Shown here: in pieces, positions 44,344-57,819 of the stretch
How positions within the stretch are numbered: the stretch's first letter is position 1
Layout: each line of letters opens with the position of its first letter
Source of the DNA: Acidovorax sp. 107
Lineage (GTDB): Bacteria > Pseudomonadota > Gammaproteobacteria > Burkholderiales > Burkholderiaceae_C
DNA length: 64,000 bases
Assembly: GCF_003058055.1 (NCBI RefSeq)
Contig: NZ_QBTZ01000001.1
Coordinates: 1,490,501-1,554,500, forward strand
Direction: 5' to 3'
Position numbers and translations under genes: made by a program
The notes under the pieces: model-generated
What the model was told of the DNA's origin: nothing
The model's input: the letters and a program-made list of their open reading frames with translations, nothing else
The model's database searches: none

Positions 44344-45042
44344 TCACACTGATTCGACAGGTAACTCTACCTGCTGTGCCGGATCTTTCGCCCGGTGCAC
44401 AAACAGCTCCAGTGGCGGCACTTTGATCAGCGCCTCTGCCTGCTCGATAGTGCCTCGCAGCCAAGTATCCCAGTCCCCCTTTTCCAGCGGCACCACGGTA
44501 CGCTTGTCCTGCATGTCGGGCGCGCGCTTGGGGTCAGGCCGGTGCATCAGGTTGAGAACCGGCACGTCGTCGCAGTTCTGCGTGATCATGGTGTAGCTGG
44601 GCAGCACCTCGCCCGTGGCCGGGTCGGTCCATTCGCTCCACAGGCCCGCCAAGCCCCAGGGCTCGCCGTCGGCCCGCTCGAACTGCCATGGGATGTGCTT
44701 GCCTGTGCCCCAGTAGGGTTCGACATACAGCTGCGCCGGGATGATGCAGCGCTGCCCCTTGCGCCAGGGGCCGCCGTAGGTCCATGACTTGGCCATGCCC
44801 TCGCGCCGGGCGTTGACGGTGCTCAGGCGCTTGCCGTCCGTGCCGGTAGGGATGTGCGTCTTGGAGTGCGGCGGGATCATGCCCCACTGGCCTACCACCA
44901 GTTCTCGTCCAGCTTCGCCCTTGGCCCGCAGGAACGGCCCACGGTACAGCGGGCTCATCTTGTCGCGCCACTCTTCCTCGGGAACGTCACCGAAGTGCAG
45001 CACCAGCTGCTCACGGCCCGGGACCTCGTAGTAGGTACACAT
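44344..45042 (-). CDS. SOS-response-associated peptidase (SRAP/YedK/HMCES family)
   Basis: This 232-residue SRAP protein has Cys2 of MCTYYEVPG as the catalytic residue, which forms a covalent bond to abasic sites in single-stranded DNA after Met removal. VNARREG (Asn) and the late His in the LMHRPDP region match the family. It protects abasic sites during replication. It is divergent from umuD with 36 bases between start codons that contain a LexA box, so SOS control is expected. Confidence 0.9.
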   Translation of the reverse strand: MCTYYEVPGREQLVLHFGDVPEEEWRDKMSPLYRGPFLRAKGEAGRELVVGQWGMIPPHSKTHIPTGTDGKRLSTVNARREGMAKSWTYGGPWRKGQRCIIPAQLYVEPYWGTGKHIPWQFERADGEPWGLAGLWSEWTDPATGEVLPSYTMITQNCDDVPVLNLMHRPDPKRAPDMQDKRTVVPLEKGDWDTWLRGTIEQAEALIKVPPLELFVHRAKDPAQQVELPVESV

Positions 45043-45545: not shown

Positions 45546-46844
45546 ATGTATGCGCTGGTGGATGGCAACAATTTTTACGTGAGCTGTGAGCGGGTTTTCC
45601 GCCCCAGCCTGAACGGCCGCCCGGTGGTGGTGCTGAGCAACAACGATGGCTGCGCCATCGCCCGCAGCAATGAAGCCAAGGCCCTGGGCATCAAGATGGG
45701 GGCGCCGTGGTTCCAGATTCGGCACATGGAAGAGACCCACGGCCTGGTGGCCTTGAGTGCCAACTTCACGCTATACGGCGACATGAGCAATCGGATGATG
45801 AGCCTGGCGGCGGGCCTGGGGCCCTCGCAGGAGATCTACAGCATCGATGAGTCGTTCATCGGCCTGCAGGGCATGCGCGGCGACCTGACCACCCGCAGCC
45901 ACGCCATCCGCGCCCGCATCCACCAATGGGCGGGCATTCCTTGCGGCATCGGCATTGGTCACACCAAGACGCTGGCGAAGCTGGCCAACCACATCGCCAA
46001 GACGGCCGAGCGCAAACCGGGGAGCTACCCGGCCGAGCTGGCCCAAGTGTGCAACCTAACCACATTGCCGGCTCAAGACCTTGATGACCTGTTGGCCAGC
46101 ACGCTGGTGGAAGAAGTCTGGGGTGTGGGCCGCAAGATCGGCGCGCAGCTGCATCAGTGTGGGGTGCATACGGTCCTGGACCTGGCCCGGCTGGACCCAG
46201 CCATGGTGCGCAGGCGCTGGAGCGTGGTGCTGGAGCGCACGGTGCGTGAGCTGCAGGGCATGCAGTGCATAGATCTGGATGACGCGCCTGAGCCCAAAAG
46301 AGAGATTGCCTGCACCCGATCATTCGGCCAGGCGGTGACCGAGCTGCCGCCGCTGGTGGAGGCCGTGAGCGAGTTCGCCAGCCGTGCGGCCGAGAAGTTG
46401 CGCAAGCAAGGGAGCCTGGCAAGCCAGCTGCTGGTGTTCTGCCACACCTCACCTTTCCGACCCGGACCCCGATTCAACCGCAGCATCGTGGTGCCACTGC
46501 GCCGGCCTACGGCTGACACGGGAAAGCTGGTGTGGGCGGCTGTAGCTGGCATGCGCCGCATGTACGAGCCTGGGTACAAGATGGCCAAGGCAGGGGTGAT
46601 GCTGCTGGACCTGGTGCCGGGCAATGCGCTGCAGGGAGAGCTGGATCTGGAGGATGAAGACCACCGGGACCGCACCCAGCTGATGGTGGCTTTGGATGCG
46701 CTCAACCAGCGCTATGGCAAGGGCACCGTGCATTCAGGTGCCACGGGGGGCACCAACAAGGGCAAGGGCTGGGGGATGAAGCAGGAGAGGCGAACGCCGC
46801 AGTACACGACGCGGTGGGAGGATGTGCCGGTGGCGCGGGCCTGA
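45546..46844 (+). CDS. umuC: Translesion DNA polymerase V catalytic subunit UmuC
   Basis: This 432-residue Y-family polymerase has [15 protein letters not shown] near the start (first catalytic Asp), [25 protein letters not shown] (Asp-Glu pair), and little-finger and C-terminal UmuC segments ending [26 protein letters not shown] lies before the ATG. It forms an SOS operon with umuD. Confidence 0.94.
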
Positions 46845-47025: not shown

Positions 47026-48153
47026 TTAAGGCAATGCTGAACAAGTAACGTCATATCCATCGCAAAGCCATTTGAATGCCAAATGGCCCGCAAAGATACT
47101 GTGCTTTGCCCCACAGGGCCTGTTTCGGGAGCCTTTGAGCCCCCTTCGGACCCTTACGGGCACATGTCCCTGCAGGCGCCCTCGGGCAAGGTAGATGTTG
47201 GCCAGCGCCAAGGCCGTGAACGCACGCGTGGCGTTCTTTTGCAGCCCGCGATAGCGCACCTTGGTGAATCCCCACAGGCGCTTTACCACCGCAAAGACAT
47301 GCTCGACCCGAGCGCGCACCCGTGACTTGTTGCGGTTCTTGGCCCGCTGAACTTCGTCCACCTCGCCCGCACGGCGGGTGCGCTGGTTGGTGAAGTCCTT
47401 GGCCCTGGGGGCTTTGCTCGCTATCAGTGTTTTCTGGCCGGCGTAGGCCGAGTCGCCGTACACGCGCTGTTCGTTGCCATGCAGCAGATCGGGCAGCGGA
47501 TGTTTGTCGTGCACGTTGGCCGCCGTCACCACAGCGCTGTGCGCCAGCCCGCTTTGACTGTCCACGCCAATGTGCAGCTTCATGCCGAAATACAATTGCT
47601 GGCCTTTGCGAGTCTAATGCATGTCGGGGTCACGCGCCTTGTCGGCGTTCTTGGTAGAACTGGGCGCTGCGATGATGGTGGCATCCACGATGGTTCCGGT
47701 ATTGACCTTGAAGCCCCGCTCCTGCAATTGCTGGCCTACCTTGGCGAACAAGGCTTCGCCCAGTTTGTGCTCATGGAGCAGTTTGCGCAACTTCAGCAGC
47801 GTGGTGGCATCGGGCACGCGTTCGCGACCCAGGTCAATGCCCACAAAGCGGCGCAGACTGGCGCTGTCATACAGGGCCTGCTCGCACGCCAGATCGGCCA
47901 GGTTGAACCAGTGTTGCAGGAAATGGATGCGCAGCATCCGCTCCAGGCCAATGGGCGGGCGGCCATTGCCTGCCTTGGGGTAGTGCGGCTCTATCACCTG
48001 ACACAGAGCGGCCCATGGCACTATTGTCTGCATGGTCCGCAAGAAATCTTCGCGTCGGGTGGGTTTGCGCGAATGCTCGAATCCGTTGTCTTGATCTGCG
48101 GCCATTGCCAGGGTCTGCTGCTTCATCTGCGGATAACGTTTGACCCCCATCAA
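47026..48153 (-). pseudogene. IS5-family transposase interrupted by an amber codon
   Basis: Residues 1-179 (48153 to 47617) and the following frame are the two halves of one DDE transposase. The DPDMH-stop-TRKGQQLYFGMKLHIGVD junction shows a TAG at 47614-47616 where IS5 relatives have Gln (CAG). The catalytic residues remain readable: Asp in TIVDATII, Asp in VYGDSAYAG and Glu in RARVEHVF. Reading frames on both sides are intact, so the inactivation is a single base change and probably recent; suppression would restore it. Confidence 0.88.
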
Positions 48154-48965: not shown

Positions 48966-48995
48966 CAAAACGTGAATCAACCAAAGGAGGCTCAC

Positions 48996-49319
48996 ATGGT
49001 CCATATCAATGTTCCTGATATGACGTGCGGCACTTGCGCCCAGCGCATTGGTCGTGCAATAGCTCAGGCCCAACTGCCTGGGGGCGTCGAAGTAGAAATC
49101 GACGTAGCTACACGTCAGGTACGCATCCCGGCGCAAGCCGGAGAAAGCACCGTGGAGCTTGTCCGCTCAGCGATTGAGCGTGCTGGATATAAAGCAGACG
49201 CGGCGGTGAGTCCTGCATCTCGCCGAACAACCGGTGGCTGCTGCTGTGCGTCTCGGCCCGTAGCCCCTGTTGACGTGGATCAAGACGGTGCAAGGCAGAC
49301 GTCGTCATGCTGCAGTTGA
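48996..49319 (+). CDS. HMA-domain metal-binding protein with Cys-rich tail
   Basis: This 107-residue protein has a heavy-metal-associated fold with DMTCGTC (CxxC) near residue 7 and a ferredoxin-like pattern ending SAIERAGYKADAA, then an added tail with GGCCCAS and SSCCS. It probably binds Cu(I) as a chaperone or sink in the cytosol. AAAGGAGG lies before ATG 48996, and a CueR-type promoter lies upstream. The C-terminal cysteine clusters are not part of the standard chaperone. Confidence 0.85.
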   Translation: MVHINVPDMTCGTCAQRIGRAIAQAQLPGGVEVEIDVATRQVRIPAQAGESTVELVRSAIERAGYKADAAVSPASRRTTGGCCCASRPVAPVDVDQDGARQTSSCCS

Positions 49320-49337
49320 ACTACCAAGGAGACCATC

Positions 49338-49841
49338 ATGCGTCTGAACATCGTCGCTGGGCTGTTGACAACCCTATTCGTGGCAGGCTGTGCCGTCGCG
49401 CAATCGCCAAAACCTGAGGACGAACACGCAGGCCACCACCCCGGAGATGCACAGAGCGGCGGCGTCACAACCCAGTCTGCCCCGGCAGCCACTGCCGCGT
49501 CTGCACCGGACGCCTTTGATCGTCAGATGAAGGCGATGCAGGAAATGCACAAAAAAATGCAGGCGGCCAAGACTCCCGCCGAACGCTCAGCGCTGATGGA
49601 GGAGCACATGAAGCTCATGCAGTCAGGCATGGCCACGATGGGCGCGGGTAGTTCTGGTGGCATGGGGATGGGAATGATGCAGCAAGGGGCGCAGACCAAA
49701 CCTGCCATGCCTGCAGCCTCCGGAAACTCGGGTATGGGAGGCATGATGGGCATGCACGCTCAAATGGAGCGCCGTATGGCCATGATGGAGCAGATGATGC
49801 AAATGATGGTGGACCGCCAAGCAGCCATGCCATCCAAGTAG
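49338..49841 (+). CDS. Met/His-rich lipoprotein, probable copper-binding
   Basis: This 167-residue protein has lipobox VAGC near residue 18, so it is a lipid-anchored envelope protein. EDEHAGHHPGD provides His, and the second half is extremely Met-rich (GMGMGMMQQ, GMGGMMGMH, MMEQMMQMMV), a pattern used by periplasmic Cu(I) binders. It follows the HMA gene by 18 bases and likely shares the CueR-type promoter. No named family is recognised. Confidence 0.75.
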   Translation: MRLNIVAGLLTTLFVAGCAVAQSPKPEDEHAGHHPGDAQSGGVTTQSAPAATAASAPDAFDRQMKAMQEMHKKMQAAKTPAERSALMEEHMKLMQSGMATMGAGSSGGMGMGMMQQGAQTKPAMPAASGNSGMGGMMGMHAQMERRMAMMEQMMQMMVDRQAAMPSK

Positions 49842-49916
49842 TCTCACCGCGAACGTTCTTTGCGGGGGAAGCTATCACTATTCCAAACGCTGGTGAGCTG
49901 CGCGAGGCTGGGTGAC

Positions 49917-50846
49917 TCAGTCACTAACCACTGTGCAGTTGCGCCCGAGCGCCTTTGCCCTGTAAACAGCTTCATCAGAGCGTTTTAGCAGCCGGGCGAG
50001 GAAATCCGCTCCGGTTTGGTGTACTGCACATGCCAGCCCGACACTGACCGTTACTGGCCCCGCCAATGAGCGAACCCGTCTGGCGCATTTGTGCACCCGC
50101 TCCGCGATTCGGGCAGCGGCTTCTGCGTCCGCATCAGGTAACCAGAGGACGAATTCTTCCCCGCCGTATCGCGCCACCAGGTCCGAACCACGGGCGCCTG
50201 CCTGTAACTGGCGAGCAAAGTTCACCAGCACCCGGTCGCCCTCGGGATGGCCATGCGCATCGTTGATCCGTTTGAAGTAGTCCACGTCCACCATCAACAA
50301 CGACACGGAACTCTGTCGAGAGGCCGTCCGTTGCCACTCTTGCACGGTCAATTCCAGCGCACGGCGGTTTTTAAGACCTGTAAGCGGATCAGAGAGACTC
50401 AGTTCCGAAAGCTGGCGATTCTGCAATTCAACCTGTTCATTGCTGGCGGCCAAGCGCTGGGCAAGACCCTGGGCCTCTGCACGGGCCTTGATCAACTCGC
50501 CTTCGAAACGGCTGCGTTCGCGGGCCACAAAAAAGGCCCATACGATGTGGTCGCCCGTCTCCAGGCGCTTGCTGACCGCATTGACCATGACAGGAACAGT
50601 CTCGCCGCCAACACCGCGCAGGTGGAGGAATACTTCGCGCGCACTCTTGGCGTGATGCAGCGTGGGAAACAGGTGGGTCTGGCTGAAAATTCGAGAAGCT
50701 GGTGTCAACAGTTCATCCATGGAGTGGCCGAGCCAAAACGCCTCCGTGCCCCCGATCAGGACAAGGAACTCCCTGTTCATCCGCACGATGTGCCCCACCG
50801 GGTCCGTGATCATCATCGCGCAAGGGATGTCATCAACCGCCAGCAT
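49917..50846 (-). CDS. PAS-GGDEF diguanylate cyclase
   Basis: This 309-residue cytosolic protein has a PAS domain at about residues 1-110 (MITDPVGHIVRMNREFLVLIGG, LLTPASRIFSQTHLFPTL, GGETVPVMVNAV), a coiled coil (about 112-150), and GGDEF with DLVARYGGEEFVLWL and RGSD inhibitory site. It should make cyclic di-GMP. It begins 21 bases after the stop of an RsbQ-like hydrolase on the same strand. In B. subtilis RsbQ works with a PAS protein (RsbP), so the PAS domain is the likely receiver of a hydrolase-dependent signal (inference). Confidence 0.88.
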   Translation of the reverse strand: MLAVDDIPCAMMITDPVGHIVRMNREFLVLIGGTEAFWLGHSMDELLTPASRIFSQTHLFPTLHHAKSAREVFLHLRGVGGETVPVMVNAVSKRLETGDHIVWAFFVARERSRFEGELIKARAEAQGLAQRLAASNEQVELQNRQLSELSLSDPLTGLKNRRALELTVQEWQRTASRQSSVSLLMVDVDYFKRINDAHGHPEGDRVLVNFARQLQAGARGSDLVARYGGEEFVLWLPDADAEAAARIAERVHKCARRVRSLAGPVTVSVGLACAVHQTGADFLARLLKRSDEAVYRAKALGRNCTVVSD

Positions 50847-50867
50847 GTTCCGCCCTCTCGGTTTCGC

Positions 50868-51680
50868 TCACGCTAAGGAGAGATATCGCTGCATGGCGGC
50901 CGTCACCAAGTGCGGATGACTCATGTGGGCGCAGTGTCCGGTCACGTCCAGCACTTCCAGCGTGCTGTCCCTGAGCTTCTTGTGCATGTATTCCCCCACC
51001 GAATGGGGCGCCAACGCATCGTTGCCATGCTGCAAGATCAGACTCGGCCGGGTCACGCGTGACAGCTCCTCTCTGGTATCCGCAAAGAAGGTTGCCTGCG
51101 CAAAGATACGAGCCATCGTAGGATCGGTTGAGCAGAAACTCTCGGACAGCTCTCCGCCCAGACTGTCTGCCTGCGGCGCTCCCGCCACAATGGGTGCGAG
51201 GTAGCTGGACCAGCCCATGAAGTTCTGGTCCATGAGGTCCAATAGGCCCTCCAAATCCTGGCGCTCGAACCCTCCAAGGTAGTCCGGAGCGTGATTGATG
51301 TAGCAAGGCGACGGGCCGACCAGAATCAGGCGATCAAAAAGCATAGGTCGCTCGATGGAGGCCAGCAGGCCGATGCTGGCGCTGACCGAATGTCCAACAA
51401 AATGCACTCCGCGCTCGATGCCCAATGCGTCGCATACATCCAGCAGATCTTGCACGTAGCCTTTCAGACTTGCGTACTTCACGGGGTCAAAGGCGGCCAA
51501 GTCTGATTGGCCGCAGCCGACGTAGTCGAACAAGACCTGGTGGCACTTACCTTCAAAGGCCGGAGTGATGTGTCGCCACATATGCTGGCTACACCCAAAG
51601 CCGTGCGCATAGACGAGCACGGGGACGTCCGGGCGAATTGCATCGATCACATGCACGTTGTTGCGCTTACGAATTTCCAC
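50868..51680 (-). CDS. RsbQ-like alpha/beta hydrolase
   Basis: This 270-residue protein aligns along its whole length with B. subtilis RsbQ (269 residues): HGFGCSQHMW, LFDYVGCGQSDLAAFD, VGPSPCYINHAPDYLGGFE, FCSTDP, GHCAHMSHP. The triad Ser98, Asp221, His249 sits exactly two residues after RsbQ Ser96, Asp219, His247. The nucleophile motif reads GHSVSA instead of GHSVGA. GTG 51680 is chosen from the homologous length, with GAAAGAAC upstream. RsbQ belongs to the D14/KAI2 receptor-hydrolase family. The downstream partner here is a PAS-GGDEF protein. Confidence 0.88.
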   Translation of the reverse strand: MEIRKRNNVHVIDAIRPDVPVLVYAHGFGCSQHMWRHITPAFEGKCHQVLFDYVGCGQSDLAAFDPVKYASLKGYVQDLLDVCDALGIERGVHFVGHSVSASIGLLASIERPMLFDRLILVGPSPCYINHAPDYLGGFERQDLEGLLDLMDQNFMGWSSYLAPIVAGAPQADSLGGELSESFCSTDPTMARIFAQATFFADTREELSRVTRPSLILQHGNDALAPHSVGEYMHKKLRDSTLEVLDVTGHCAHMSHPHLVTAAMQRYLSLA

Positions 51681-51820
51681 TGTTGTTCTTTCCGGGCGGT
51701 CAGTCCGCAGATTTTGCACGCCTGACGCTTGCACCGTGCGCAAAATAGCATGCAAGCGTGCGCGATTGGGAGTGAGAAACAACTGGTTTATCGCTAGCAC
51801 CAGCTTGCGCAACGCAGCGT

Positions 51821-54800
51821 TCAGCCTCCAGATGCCTCTGTTTTCACTCTCCTTGGCTTTCGCATCAGCACATAGGCTGCAGGAATCACGAACAAAGAAA
51901 GCAGCGGTGCGGTCACCATACCGCCCAGCATGGGAGCCGCGATGCGGCTCATGACCTCCGAGCCTGTCCCGCTGCTCCACACGATGGGTACCAGGCCCGC
52001 CAGGATGACGGCTACGGTCATGGCCTTGGGCCGGACGCGCAGCACGGCACCTTCGCGGATCGCGTCCAGCAGATCTTCCAGCGTGGGCTGCTTGCCGTCT
52101 GGACATCTCTCTGCGAGTGCCTGCTTGAGGTAGATGAGCATGACCACCCCAAACTCTGCTGCCACCCCTGCCAGGGCAATGAAGCCAACGCCCGTTGCGA
52201 TGGACAAGTTGTAGTTCATCAGGTACAGGAACCAGATACCCCCGGTCAATGCGAACGGCAGTGTCGCCATGATCAGTCCTGCCTCCCCCATGCGTGAGAA
52301 GGTCAAGTACAACAACACGAAGATGATCAGCAAGGTGGCGGGCACGACTACCTTAAGGCGGGCATTGGCCCGCTCCAGGTACTCGAACTGGCCTGAGTAC
52401 GTGATGCTGACCCCGGGCTCCAGCTTGATCTGTCGGCTCACGGCATCGCGCAGGTCATTGGCCACCGATGCCAGATCGCGCCCCCGCACATCGACATACA
52501 CCCAGCCCGATGGGCGGGCGTTCTCGCTCTTGAGCATGGGCGGCCCATCGGTGATGGAGATGCTGGCCACCGTACCCAGCGTGATCTGCTGACCCATGGG
52601 GGTGGAGATGGGCAACTGGGCCAGGCGTTCTGGGGAGTCTCTCCATTCACGCGGATAGCGCAGGTTGATTGGGAAGCGGGCCAGGCCCTCGACCGTTTCA
52701 GAGACGTTTTCTCCACCGATGGCCCCGGAGACCACGGCCTGGATTTCGCTTACGTTCAGCCCGTAGCGCCCTGCGGCCGTGCGGTCGATGCGGACATCGA
52801 CGTAGCGCCCCCCCGTCAGGCGCTCTGCCAACGACGAAGTCACTCCCGGAATGCCCTTGGCGACCTGCTCGACTTGGGCAGCGATCCCGTCGATCACCTT
52901 CAGGTCGTTGCCGGTCACCTTGACCCCGATGGGACTCTTGATGCCGGTGGCCAGCATGTCAATCCGGTTGCGGATGGGTGGAATCCAGATGTTGGACAGG
53001 CCAGGAATCTTGACGGCCTTGTCCAGCTCCTCGATCAGACCCTCGGGCGTCATTCCTGGACGCCATTGGTCTCTGGGCTTGAGCTTCACCGTGGTCTCGA
53101 ACATTTCCAGCGGTGCCGGATCGGTTGCGGTCTCCGCGCGGCCAGCCTTGCCGAAGACGCGCTCGACCTCGGGAACCGTCTTGATCATCCGGTTGCTCAG
53201 TTGCAGAAGCTCCGTCGCCCGCTGTGCCGACAGGCCCGGGAGCGCCGAAGGCATGTACAGCAGATCGCCTTCATCGAGCCTGGGCAGGAACTCGCCCCCC
53301 AGCCGCGAGAGGGGCCAGATCGTGGTCGTCAGCGCTAGCACGGCGATGACCAGGGTAGATTTTGGGCGGTGCAGAACCCACTCCAGGCAAGGCCGGTACA
53401 CGGCGATCAGCGCGCGCGTGATCGGGTTCTTTTGCTCATCTGGGATGCGGCCCCGGATCCAGTAGCCCATCAGGACCGGGATCAGCGTGACCGAGAGGGC
53501 CGCAGCTGCGGCCATCGCGTAGGTCTTAGTGAACGCCAGCGGTCCAAACAGGCGGCCTTCCTGTGCTTCCAGCGTAAAGACGGGCACGAAGGACAAGGTG
53601 ATGATGAGCAGCGAGAAGAACAGCGCGGGGCCTACCTCCTCGGCGGCTTCGGTGATTACCTTCCAGCGCTCTTCCCCCACCAGTTGGCGGTCGGGATGCT
53701 TGTGCTGCCAGGCCTCCAGCTTCTTGTGGGCGTTCTCGATCATCACCACGGCCGCATCAACCATGGCGCCCACTGCGATCGCAATGCCACCCAGAGACAT
53801 GATGTTGGCGTTGATGCCCTGGTAGCGCATCACCAGAAACGCCGCCATGATCCCCAGAGGCAGAGAAATGATGGCGACCAGTGCCGAGCGCAGGTGCCAG
53901 AGGAACAAGACACAGACCACAGCCACCACGATGAACTCCTCCACGAGTTTGGTGGTGAGGTTCTGGATCGCCCGCTCAATGAGCGCACTGCGGTCGTAGG
54001 TTGTGACGATCTCCACGCCCTGGGGCAGGCTGCTTTGCAGCTCGCTGAGCTTGGCCTTGACGGCTTGGATGGTTTCCTGGGCATTCTTGCCCGAGCGCAG
54101 GACCACCACGCCACCGGCCACCTCGCCCTCGCCGTCGAGTTCGGCGATGCCGCGCCGCATCTCTGGCCCGATCTGGAGCGTTGCAACATCGCCCAGGCGC
54201 ACCGGAATCCCGGCGCGAGACACCAGCGGGATGGAACGAAAGTCATCGAGCGTCTTGAGGTAGCCGCTGGCGCGCACCATGTACTCGGCCCCGGACAACT
54301 CCAGCACCGATCCCCCGGTTTCCTGGTTGGCTCCCAGGATGGCCTCGCGCACCTGCCCCTGGGTCAGCCCTTGGGCTGCGAGTTTGATTGGATCAAGCAC
54401 TACCTGGTACTGCTTGACCATGCCGCCCACCGACGCCACTTCCGCGACATTGGGCAGGCTCTTGAGTTCGAACTTCAGAAACCAGTCCTGCAGGGCCCGC
54501 AACTGGGCGAGATCGTTCTTGCCGGTGCGGTCCACCAGCGCATATTGGTAGATCCAGCCGACCCCCGTGGCGTCGGGGCCGAGCGACGATTTGGCCGTGG
54601 CGGGTAGTCGTCCCTGCACCTGGTTCATGTACTCCAGCACGCGGGAACGCGCCCAGTACAAGTCCGTGCCGTCCTCGAACAGGATGTAGACAAACGAGTC
54701 GCCAAAGAACGAGAAGCCGCGCACTGTCTTGGCGCCCGGGACGGACAGCATGGTGGTGGCCAGCGGGTACGTCACCTGGTTTTCCACGATCTGCGGCGCC

Positions 54801-54967
54801 TGGCCGGGATAGGAGGTACGGATGATGACCTGGACATCCGACAAATCAGGGAGAGCGTCCACGGGGGTGCTGCGCACTCCCCACACGCCCCAGGCCGTGA
54901 GCATCACGGTCGCCAGCAGAACCAGGAGTCGGTTCGCCACCGACCAGCGGATCAGACGTGCGATCAT
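51821..54967 (-). CDS. cusA: Copper/heavy-metal efflux RND permease (CusA/CzcA)
   Basis: This 1048-residue HME-RND pump has [28 protein letters not shown] at the N-terminus, characteristic of CusA/SilA, then 12 membrane helices in two sets ([42 protein letters not shown]). It moves Cu(I)/Ag(I) through the adaptor and outer-membrane channel by proton exchange. The ATG overlaps the cusB stop by four bases. The C-terminal end is normal. Confidence 0.93.
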
Positions 54968-56481
54968 GGCTTGATCCTTTCCACGGCAGTGATCACGAAG
55001 TCCTTGCCTTGCTGCTGGAAGGTGAACTTGACCTGCTGCTCCGGTTTCAGGGCCTTGGCCAGCTCTGGGTTTGCCAGCTTGAATGGCATGGTCATGCCGG
55101 GCCACTTCAGTTCAGGCACGGCCTCGTGGGTAAGGGTCAGCTCGGTTGGCGTGACCTCATCGACCACCCCTCGCACCGTAAAGCTCTTGGACGCCGGAGC
55201 CGCAGAGGCCGAGGAACCCTGTTCAGCGATGGGTTGTGCGCTGCTGCCGGGAGGTTGAGCGGGCATGATGCCTCGCAGGCTGGCTTCCGAGTCGATCAGG
55301 AACTGCGCCGAGGCGACCACCTGCTGCCCTGCGGTGAGTCCGCTTTGAATGACGAGTCGGTCATCGATTTCCGCGCCAAGTTGTACCTGGACGGGGTGGT
55401 ACTTGCCGGGGCCATCCACCACGTAGACCAGCGCCCGCTTGCCGGTGCGGATCACCGCTTCGCTGGGCACCAGCAACGCCGGTTGGGTGCGTCCCGCCAG
55501 GACAATCTGCCCGGACATGCCCGCCTTCAGCCGCTGGGTGGGGTTGGGAAGCTCCAGGCGCACGCGCACCGTGCGGGTGTCCCGGTTGGCCTCCGGGAGG
55601 ATGCTCACGACACGGGCTTTGAGGGTTTCGCCCGGAAACGCGGCCAGGCGCACCTGGGCGTCCTGCCCCAGTTGCAAGGGACCGCTTTGCGCTTCGGGAA
55701 CGGCCGCTTCGATCCAGACGCTGGCCAGACCGTTTACGCGTACGAGACTGGCACCCGCAGAGACCGTCATGCCCTGGCGCACCATCAGTTCGGCCACCAT
55801 CCCTGCTTGTGGGAAGGTCACCGTGTAGCGGCCCTGAGGTTCGCCCGTGCGCTCCACCTGGGCCACGAGCGAGGCAGGCATGCCCAGCAGTGACAACCGA
55901 TGACGCGAAGCGGCCGTCAGCGACTCTTCCTTGAGCGCCCGGACAGCGAGGAACTCGCGCTGCGCAGCCACCCACTCAGGCAGCAGTAAATCGGCCAATG
56001 GCGCGCCTGCGGCCACCACGTCACCCGGGGCCCGGGCATAGACACGCTCCACAAATCCTGCAGAACGCGCCTGGACGATACTCACATCCCGGTCATTGAG
56101 CTGGACCGTGCCCAGCACGTCCACATCGGATCCAATGTCGCGCTGCTCCACCGTGGCGGTGCGCAGGCCGAGGGCTTGCACCGCTTGTGCCGAGACATTC
56201 AAACCGGTGCTTTGTTGTGCGTCCTCATCGGCGTACTTGGGAACCAGCGCCATGTCCATGTAGGGCGACTTGCCTGGCTTGTCGAACTTCTGCGTTGGCA
56301 CCATGGGGTCGTACCAGTACAGCACCTTGCGGTCGGCCTTCGCCGCTTCTGCCGATGGAGGGGTAGCGCCAGATGGATGACTGCTCGCAATGCGCCATTG
56401 GGAGACGCCCCAACCGAGGGCAATGCCAGCAGCCACCAGTGCCACGGCCACAGTGGTCTTCTTGAAAACGGTATTGGTCAT
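54964..56481 (-). CDS. cusB: Copper efflux periplasmic adaptor with fused CusF-like domain
   Basis: This 505-residue membrane-fusion protein has an N-terminal helix ([14 protein letters not shown]), a heavy-metal-binding YDPMVP...[10 protein letters not shown] segment near residue 55, then barrel-sandwich and beta domains of CusB. The last about 75 residues ([33 protein letters not shown]) form a CusF-type Cu(I)/Ag(I) chaperone with Trp and two Met ligands. The fusion removes the need for a separate cusF gene, and none is seen. It is coupled to cusA. Confidence 0.92.
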
Positions 56482-56493
56482 GTGGTTCTCCCT

Positions 56494-57819
56494 TCAGTCC
56501 GCGATCAGGCTGTTCAGACGGGCAATCACGGTGTCCCGCTGCGCCTGCAGATCAATGAGCCGCCAGTGCGTCTCCCGCACTTGGGCCCTGGCCGCCAGCA
56601 CGGCGCTCAAGTCGCCTTTGGCAGACTGGTAATTGGCCAACGCGAGTTCGGCACGCCCCTGTGCCAAGCCCATGCCCGCCGATTGCAGCCGCTCGATCTG
56701 ACTGTTCAGTGCCGCCAGCTCTGAGGCGCTGTCCTCCAGCTCCTGCAGGTGCCTGCGGGTCACGTCTTCCTGCTCGGCGTCCAGGCGCTGCAGCTCCAGC
56801 TGCTTGGCCTTGATCTGGGGTCCCTGGCGCCGCTCCTGTTGCCAGGGAAGGTCAAAGGTCACCTGGAAGGACACCATGTCGCCCCAGCGTCGGTCGCGGC
56901 GGCTGTAGGCGACTTCCCAGGACCAATCACCCTTGGTTTCTGCTTGGGCTTCGCGCGTTTCCGCCAAGGCCATGGCCTGCATGGCGGGGTACTGCGCAAG
57001 TTCCGCGTGGCGGTGTACCTCAGACCGCAGTTGATCCAAGGGGCGGCTCAGCGGCCCAGGAGTTCCCTGTAGCGCCTCGTCGGCGCGAGCGCCAACCCAG
57101 CGCCGCAACATCGCCCTGGCCTTGGACCGGTCCCGCTGCAGATCGTCCCTGCGATCCGACAGCGCAAGCGCCTCCTGCCTGGCCATCAGCAGGTCTGCGG
57201 CCTGGGCCGTGCCTCCGGCGATGCGGGCGGGCAGGCTGTCCTGCAGGCGCTGGTTCTCACTCAGTAGACCGGTGAGTACCTGGTCACGTTGCTCGATAGC
57301 CTGGGCCAGGATCCACGCTTGACTCAGTTCCTGGCGGATCTGCAGGCGCTGGACCGCCAGGGTGGCGCGTTCGCGTTCCACCTTGGCCTCGGCACCGGCG
57401 ATCTGGGCATCGCGCTTGGCCCGGTTGGGCACCTCCTGCATCAGCGCCAGGCGCTGCATGGTCATGGACTCACGCGTGAGGCTGAAGCGGTCCATGCCGC
57501 TGATGGGAAAGTTCTCGATACCGACCGAGAGCTTGGGATCCGGCAGCGTTCCCGCCGCCTGCCGGGTGCTGGTGGCTGCGTCAATCTGCAGCCGCTGGGC
57601 CGTGATGCGAGGGCTGTGCTGCTCCGCCAGATCCAAGGCCTCTGCAAAGCCCAGGGCGTGGGCCTGGTTGCCAGCCAAGCCGATGCTGGTCAACAGGACC
57701 CCGAGAGCGCCCAGGCGCAGTTGGCGGAGGTTGCGCACCTGTATGCGCTGCGAGATGGGGTGAATGCGCTGGTGCGCAGACAGGCGCTCGCAGGGAGCGC
57801 CGAAGGAGATGATGGGCAT
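56494..57819 (-). CDS. cusC: TolC-family outer-membrane efflux protein (CusC/CzcC)
   Basis: This outer-membrane channel of up to 441 residues has repeated amphipathic helices (LAEQHSPRITAQRLQI, LPDPKLSVGIENFPISG) that are the CzcC pattern. The signal peptide (LGALGVLLTSIGLAGNQAHA) begins about 30 residues in, so GTG 57738 may be the true start rather than 57819. It lies 12 bases before cusB, completing the CusCBA efflux set. Confidence 0.88.
   Translation of the reverse strand: MPIISFGAPCERLSAHQRIHPISQRIQVRNLRQLRLGALGVLLTSIGLAGNQAHALGFAEALDLAEQHSPRITAQRLQIDAATSTRQAAGTLPDPKLSVGIENFPISGMDRFSLTRESMTMQRLALMQEVPNRAKRDAQIAGAEAKVERERATLAVQRLQIRQELSQAWILAQAIEQRDQVLTGLLSENQRLQDSLPARIAGGTAQAADLLMARQEALALSDRRDDLQRDRSKARAMLRRWVGARADEALQGTPGPLSRPLDQLRSEVHRHAELAQYPAMQAMALAETREAQAETKGDWSWEVAYSRRDRRWGDMVSFQVTFDLPWQQERRQGPQIKAKQLELQRLDAEQEDVTRRHLQELEDSASELAALNSQIERLQSAGMGLAQGRAELALANYQSAKGDLSAVLAARAQVRETHWRLIDLQAQRDTVIARLNSLIAD

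Follow-up and report, generated by a model that had tools for sequence, protein, structure and literature searches.

A predicted RsbQ-PAS module with diguanylate cyclase output, apparently a recent insert beside a copper-efflux operon in Acidovorax sp. 107

Does an alpha/beta hydrolase encoded next to a PAS-GGDEF protein feed a small-molecule signal into cyclic di-GMP (c-di-GMP) synthesis, and why does such a pair sit beside copper-efflux genes? The locus lies in a 64,000-nucleotide stretch of the Acidovorax sp. 107 genome, here called the window, in which a sequence-only reading had picked out an RsbQ-like hydrolase with an intact triad, a PAS-GGDEF protein 21 bases on with intact GGEEF and RxxD sites, and copper-efflux neighbours on an apparent island. 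The two genes are as described. The hydrolase gene (50868..51680, minus strand; 270 residues, GTG start, Pfam Abhydrolase) is immediately upstream of the cyclase gene on the same strand, with a gap of 21 bases, and its triad residues Ser98, Asp221 and His249 (codons 51387-51389, 51018-51020 and 50934-50936, minus strand) are invariant in 11 of 11 aligned sequences, the window's own among them; we take the corresponding B. subtilis RsbQ residues to be Ser96, Asp219 and His247. Among solved structures it is closest to RsbQ of B. subtilis (1wom, 288 bits), and it also aligns with Olei00960 (3qvm, 255 bits), whereas the best D14/KAI2-type chain reaches 177 bits and other plant receptors of that type are weaker. 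KAI2 and D14 are plant alpha/beta hydrolases of the same branch that serve as receptors; the window hydrolase differs from them in being closer to RsbQ and in having a PAS-GGDEF protein as its partner.

The second gene (49917..50846, minus strand, ATG start) encodes a 309-residue PAS-coiled coil-GGDEF protein, a predicted diguanylate cyclase. From its N-terminus, all on the minus strand, it comprises an RsbP-type PAS domain (50526..50846; residues 1-107, Pfam PAS match 4-106) whose F-alpha helix (50649..50702; residues 49-66 in the predicted model) holds F54 and H58, a continuous predicted helix (50397..50522; residues 109-150) and a GGDEF domain (49938..50390; residues 153-303; Pfam GGDEF match 152-303, 144 bits). 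The marks of an active diguanylate cyclase are, as we take them, GG(D/E)EF, a metal-site Asp, DxLT and an RxxD I-site. The protein has GGEEF at residues 228-232 (50151-50165, minus strand) and RGSD as its I-site at residues 219-222 (50181-50192, minus strand); D187 and D153 are invariant in an 80-row alignment of relatives, and R219 and D222 are kept in at least 90%. By these sequence criteria the protein is predicted to be an active diguanylate cyclase. No SpoIIE/PPM output is matched in it by Pfam at E 0.001, and it is 93% identical to a protein named Acidovorax kalamii. The predicted monomer (mean pLDDT 90.6, pTM 0.59) consists of the PAS domain, one helix spanning residues 109-150 and the GGDEF domain; a fold search of this model against a pdb library places PA0861 and LOV-DGC 8c05 on top, a PAS-GGDEF-EAL protein and a LOV-activated cyclase being among the closest solved folds.

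The proposal that an RsbQ-type hydrolase and a PAS protein are joined here to a cyclase output stands as a module assignment but not as a novelty, since Nadezhdin, Brody and Price described the RsbQ-PAS module, with phosphatase, kinase and diguanylate cyclase outputs, in 2011 (PMC3183031; the word Acidovorax is absent from its main text). That work gives as class positions, in B. subtilis numbers, C10, L13, L48, Q53, F55, C56, Y59, E72 and P86, plus P62, and a coiled coil of at least 21 residues leading to the output in 36 of 45 cases. The window cyclase has C9, M12, L47, R52, F54, S55, H58, P61, E71 and P85, a constant offset of -1 with eight of nine positions matching by type; the offset is taken from the published RsbP numbers and conserved columns, in an alignment that does not contain B. 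subtilis RsbP itself. F54 and H58 are thereby the equivalents of RsbP F55 and Y59. Among 151 PAS partners, the class residues are kept as C in 114, R in 122, F in 122, H in 114, P62 in 147, E in 150 and P86 in 121; the window's S55 is off the consensus (S in 7 of 151), and M12 is a conservative hydrophobic change from the usual Leu (Met in 10 of 151). The DIT motif is absent at the PAS end, where the sequence ends FFVARERSRFE. With an RsbQ homologue upstream, the PAS domain N-terminal, the class positions in place, a GGDEF output and a coiled coil indicated by helix 109-150 and its heptad-phased length rather than by PCOIL, the window pair is classed from its sequence as a member of the RsbQ-PAS module; its cyclase is not an RsbP, because it has no phosphatase domain. 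It thus resembles the B. subtilis RsbQ-RsbP pair of the sigma-B energy-stress branch in its RsbQ-type hydrolase and in the RsbP class residues of its PAS domain, and differs in output, GGDEF here and a PPM phosphatase in RsbP. With the module at large it shares the hydrolase directly upstream, the RsbP-type PAS domain at the extreme N-terminus, the coiled coil and a published output type, and it stands apart as an apparently recent insert in a copper island. To the published module the present analysis adds three things: fusions of hydrolase and PAS in natural proteins, a strictly kept linker phase and a recent move into a copper-resistance locus.

The copper neighbourhood is as the sequence-only reading had it. 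Directly upstream of the hydrolase lies a cusCBA-like copper/silver efflux operon (51821..57819, minus strand; cusA, cusB and an outer-membrane factor) whose CusB-type adaptor (54964-56481, minus strand) carries a C-terminally fused CusF copper-binding domain, and on the other side HMA (copper-chaperone-like) and Metal_resist-type genes (48972..49841, plus strand) converge on the pair. By family, the cusA product is a CusA/CzcA-type RND protein, and the copper neighbours also comprise a P-type ATPase with HMBD/YHS domains, besides the HMA protein; the Metal_resist-type neighbour scores under its Pfam family's curated cut-off, and a neighbouring gene with HMA and pyridine-redox domains is taken, from its domains, as mercuric-reductase-like. 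Elsewhere in the window, transposase remnants occupy two frames (47026-48153, with DUF772 in 47614-48153) and adjoin a umuC-like gene (45546-46844) and an SRAP gene (44344-45042).

Within this neighbourhood, the hydrolase and cyclase together form a two-gene unit of roughly 2.0 kb (49860..51854, minus strand, ends approximate), which congeneric genomes either carry or lack at one and the same site; in that sense the suspected island is borne out. The pair lies beside cusA in seven genomes (G000, G005, G020, G023, G024, G027 and G040), which by the design of the collection are seven species, and is absent at 10 strongly similar cusA loci of the genus (90-97% identity, nine genomes), G023 and G027 holding both filled and empty loci; the cusA locus of G043 is cut off and stands outside this count. 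At the empty loci, similarity to the window resumes at 51852-51855. In five of the nine empty loci read, the Metal_resist-type gene is found 141-434 bases beyond cusA, compared with about 2.0 kb in the window, and at the remaining four no such gene turned up in the roughly 1.5 kb past cusA. Across the seven filled loci, the pair and its gap to cusA are 98.7-100% identical in DNA (median 99.9), against 91.2-99.2% for cusA (median 92.3) and 89.1-98.9% for cusB (median 91.1, six loci). Since the pair is more alike than its flanks, we conclude that it spread after the flanks diverged, by recombination or transfer, and we read it from these comparisons as a recent insert beside the copper-efflux operon. 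In loci L051, L053 and L054, near-identity starts near 49275 and stops between 51860 and 51990, so the Metal_resist-type gene appears to be included too; in L051 that gene has its own cluster of differences. The spacer at the insertion site is replaced, and no duplicated target or transposon ends were seen in the junction sequences inspected by eye. Among 399 sampled genomes of the order, only G000 has the whole insert, and two match part of the hydrolase at 67-70%. Carriage of the pair on plasmids was considered and rejected: among 72,556 plasmids, coverage of the pair never reaches 80% and is at best 17%, at 67%, although many plasmids carry hydrolases of this type (184 records at E 1e-5, every one under 60% identity). 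The copper-operon insert is a natural example of a signalling module that has changed loci among closely related species.

Whether the pair does anything for metal resistance is a separate matter. It might simply hitchhike on a metal-resistance island with no metal-related role, a reading to which we give almost an even chance. Damaged or altered copies suit it: the hydrolase of G023 (L056) has an in-frame TAA stop beside an intact cyclase, which may be persisting without its hydrolase or decaying; in G024 a ~1.39-kb insertion with a 421-residue transposase-like frame (L051:7660-9050) sits at the cyclase 3' end, where it extends the last cyclase residues, its two flanks overlapping by 8 bases; and the pair is split in G002. 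Set against this, five of the seven filled copies (G000, G005, G020, G027 and G040) are uninterrupted and encode both proteins 100% identical to the window's, and a unit younger than its flanks implies that something spread it.

Alternatively, read-through from cusCBA could raise the hydrolase and cyclase with copper and so arm a biofilm switch, which we find doubtful. The pair is on the same strand as cusA and 140 bases past it, a near-identical unit recurs in seven species, and sequence scans found neither a sigma-70-like promoter between 49300 and 52200 (0 hits, 0.7 expected) nor a terminator-like site within the 140-base cusA-hydrolase gap, so read-through from cusA is possible. However, the promoter scan is crude, a weak terminator-like site is present just inside the cusA end, and the ten similar cusA loci without the pair, with G023 and G027 holding both kinds, speak against such a role. 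A copper link as a general feature of the module, which the earlier emphasis on the copper position might have implied, was rejected: in a survey of 73 genus/family and 80 named loci outside the island (3.8-20 kb each; E cut-offs 1e-8 and 1e-6), 149 of 153 have no CusA, CusB or CusC match, a count that weighs against the read-through reading too. The other four (L082, L094, L096 and L186) match CusA or CusB at 24-27% identity, and neither CusC nor the two small metal genes are matched at any of the 153. In a literature search on RsbQ and copper, Listeria plasmid papers name RsbQ only in a reference. The copper operon is probably a landing site only, perhaps lending transcription too. The boldest version, to which we attach little credence, is a mobile cassette that converts a small-molecule signal (perhaps a butenolide-like lactone) into c-di-GMP and that gained metal-induced transcription through its insertion at the 3' end of a copper-efflux operon, so that in several species copper would arm and the ligand would fire a sessile switch.

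How the hydrolase could act on the cyclase is suggested by the linker between the PAS and output domains. In the window protein, 38 residues separate Glu115 at the PAS end from the Asp of DxLT, a spacing of 3 modulo 7. All 35 direct PAS-GGDEF partners that were measured share this phase, with values of 24 (n=8), 38 (n=6, all copies of the window's island) and 52 (n=21). These come from 62 GGDEF partners, 60 of which have the motif, 25 of the 60 carrying a longer intervening stretch of at least 137 residues. The same phase holds for 77 of 77 measurable rows among 80 database relatives (lengths 24, 31, 38, 45 and 52; three rows lack the motif, and the neighbouring gene is known for only part of the rows). 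Kinases keep a phase of their own: of 76, 55 were measurable, and the distance to the phospho-acceptor His equals 5 modulo 7 in 29 of 30 direct cases and in 39 of 40 direct fusions, leaving one rule breaker in each group. The heptad rule itself is not new. Linker lengths in steps of seven are reported for other sensor-GGDEF proteins, PadC, LOV-DGC and DgcR/WspR among them, with a share of 54% in PadC compared with all direct lengths measured here (PMC8041772, PMC9587094); unlike those coiled-coil-coupled cyclases, the window protein has as its sensor a PAS domain proposed to be read by a separate hydrolase. An eLife paper of 2025 proposes a coiled-coil relay for phosphatases, kinases and cyclases, and in its predicted complex of two RsbP and two RsbQ the hydrolase is placed at the PAS domains and linkers (PMC12143880). 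The linker phase in the sequences at hand shows a predicted coiled-coil relay in fixed register, not control by the hydrolase.

On the link between hydrolase and PAS domain, natural fusions are informative. At one locus (G379), hydrolase, PAS and kinase are encoded in one chain, identical to a named Polaromonas protein, and with this fusion as query, 74 of the 120 matches listed (393 over threshold) have hydrolase and PAS in one chain. Among these 74, 46 carry a kinase, 9 carry SpoIIE and 19 have no output recognised by our own profiles, and the hydrolase is N-terminal in 73; a hydrolase-PAS-GGDEF fusion was not found among the 120 matches listed of 393. The class residues are largely retained within these 74 fusions (C in 70, P62 in 70 and F or Y at the F55 position in 72), E72 (58) and a basic residue at position 53 (53) being less kept. 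The 2011 description of the module speaks of adjacent hydrolase and PAS genes (PMC3183031), and a search of titles and abstracts found no paper on hydrolase-PAS fusions. In a quick tree of 142 hydrolases, output type switches at least 10 times, against an average of 45 with shuffled labels, nine rows of unassigned output being left out and 58 of 139 inner branches being weakly supported; at least four switches are forced for the kinase by well supported branches. Such switching across the hydrolase tree suggests that one input module has been re-wired repeatedly. Other architectures occur beside these. RsbQ-type hydrolases form the C-terminal domain of OmpR-type response regulators in P0167 and P0170, where a receiver and winged helix precede it, and, by precomputed domains, in P0171, P0179 and P0182 (P0165 with the winged helix only); in these fusions the hydrolase might directly gate a transcription factor. 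An RsbQ-type hydrolase is also fused, at the N-terminus, to an RsbW-like HATPase_c_2 domain in P0210 and, by precomputed domains, to the same kind of domain in P0206-P0208, P0211 and P0212.

A direct physical coupling is supported by the natural fusions together with the strict heptad rule, and we consider it likely that the window pair is a bipartite RsbQ-PAS input module wired to a diguanylate cyclase, with the hydrolase as the receptor. The hydrolase most likely docks onto the F-alpha helix of the PAS domain, with ligand capture relayed by the heptad-phased coiled coil. A small hydrophobic molecule, presumably an ester or lactone, would enter the Ser-His-Asp pocket of a hydrolase that touches the F-alpha helix within a putative PAS-GGDEF dimer; pocket occupancy or turnover would alter the PAS dimer, in one direction or the other, and the change would pass along a parallel coiled coil held in heptad register. 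The two GGDEF domains would thereby be brought into productive alignment to make c-di-GMP, and output would be limited by product inhibition at the RxxD site. The soluble 309-residue cyclase would offer a simple c-di-GMP readout for ligand, catalysis and contact, which bears on the plant receptors as well. As for the ligand, a 2024 title by Melville and colleagues reportedly has butenolides perceived by B. subtilis via RsbQ.

Ligand binding is frequent among PAS domains, which counts in favour of the PAS domain being the real sensor. This is Model 1 of PMC3183031, whereby the hydrolase hands its product into the PAS pocket, and the intact triad, invariant in the 11 aligned sequences, fits it, as do the null phenotypes of triad substitutions in B. 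subtilis RsbQ. Yet F54 and H58 are conserved, and their B. subtilis counterparts affect contact with RsbQ, RsbP F55A losing both RsbQ binding and signalling, although the same paper deems such contact compatible with product delivery too; moreover, it reports no PAS ligand, the ligand of the module being still lacking in 2011 (PMC3183031). We regard product delivery as unlikely and favour the hydrolase as receptor.

Absence of recurrent pairing, the result set beforehand as refuting the sequence-only reading, was not observed: the pairing recurs widely. The hydrolase has a PAS partner after it, encoded on the same strand, at 74 of 80 genus/family loci (a gene of its own in 73, a fusion in one) and at 77 of 80 named loci. 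The former set holds all 20 other places in the genus, seven genus/family loci being copies of the window's own island, and 60 of 73 further family places (13 weaker ones left out); the latter holds the best 80 of at least 585 loci from one scan of genome contigs, and the two sets overlap (e.g., L071 = L161 and L065 = L166). The loci without a PAS partner are L057 (contig end), L067, L070, L125, L126 and L127 in the genus/family set and L184, L200 (both contig ends) and L230 in the named set; L070 and L125 have a GGDEF domain and no PAS match. By our own profiles, the outputs are 39 kinases, 34 GGDEF and one unassigned in the genus/family set, and 37 kinases, 28 GGDEF, four phosphatases and eight unassigned in the named set, in agreement with Pfam for 78 named partners (37 HATPase_c, 28 GGDEF, 4 SpoIIE). 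The adjacency is reciprocal: the PAS-GGDEF subclass (E<=1e-50) occurs in 9 of 399 family genomes, with five candidates scored per genome, and lies beside a hydrolase in all nine; within the genus it occurs in 8 of 47 genomes and adjoins a hydrolase in seven. The eighth, G002, has hydrolase and cyclase on two different contig ends; loss of the cyclase there (locus L057) was considered and rejected, as the gene sits at another contig's end. Distances among the hydrolases correlate with those among the PAS domains (r 0.75, a value that none of 1000 permutations equalled), shared species ancestry contributing to the value. These surveys of gene order and sequence indicate that the pairing is not chance.

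Both alpha/beta hydrolases and GGDEF proteins abound, so an unrelated metabolic esterase could have come to lie beside a cyclase by chance, a reading refuted for practical purposes by the PAS partner at 151 of 160 loci (overlapping sets), the fusions and the reciprocal adjacency. Within the same genus, other hydrolase copies precede larger PAS...GGDEF proteins of 1207-1246 residues (L060, L061 and L063-L066), and G024 has, in addition to its island copy, a second hydrolase with a 971-residue PAS...GGDEF partner (L059).
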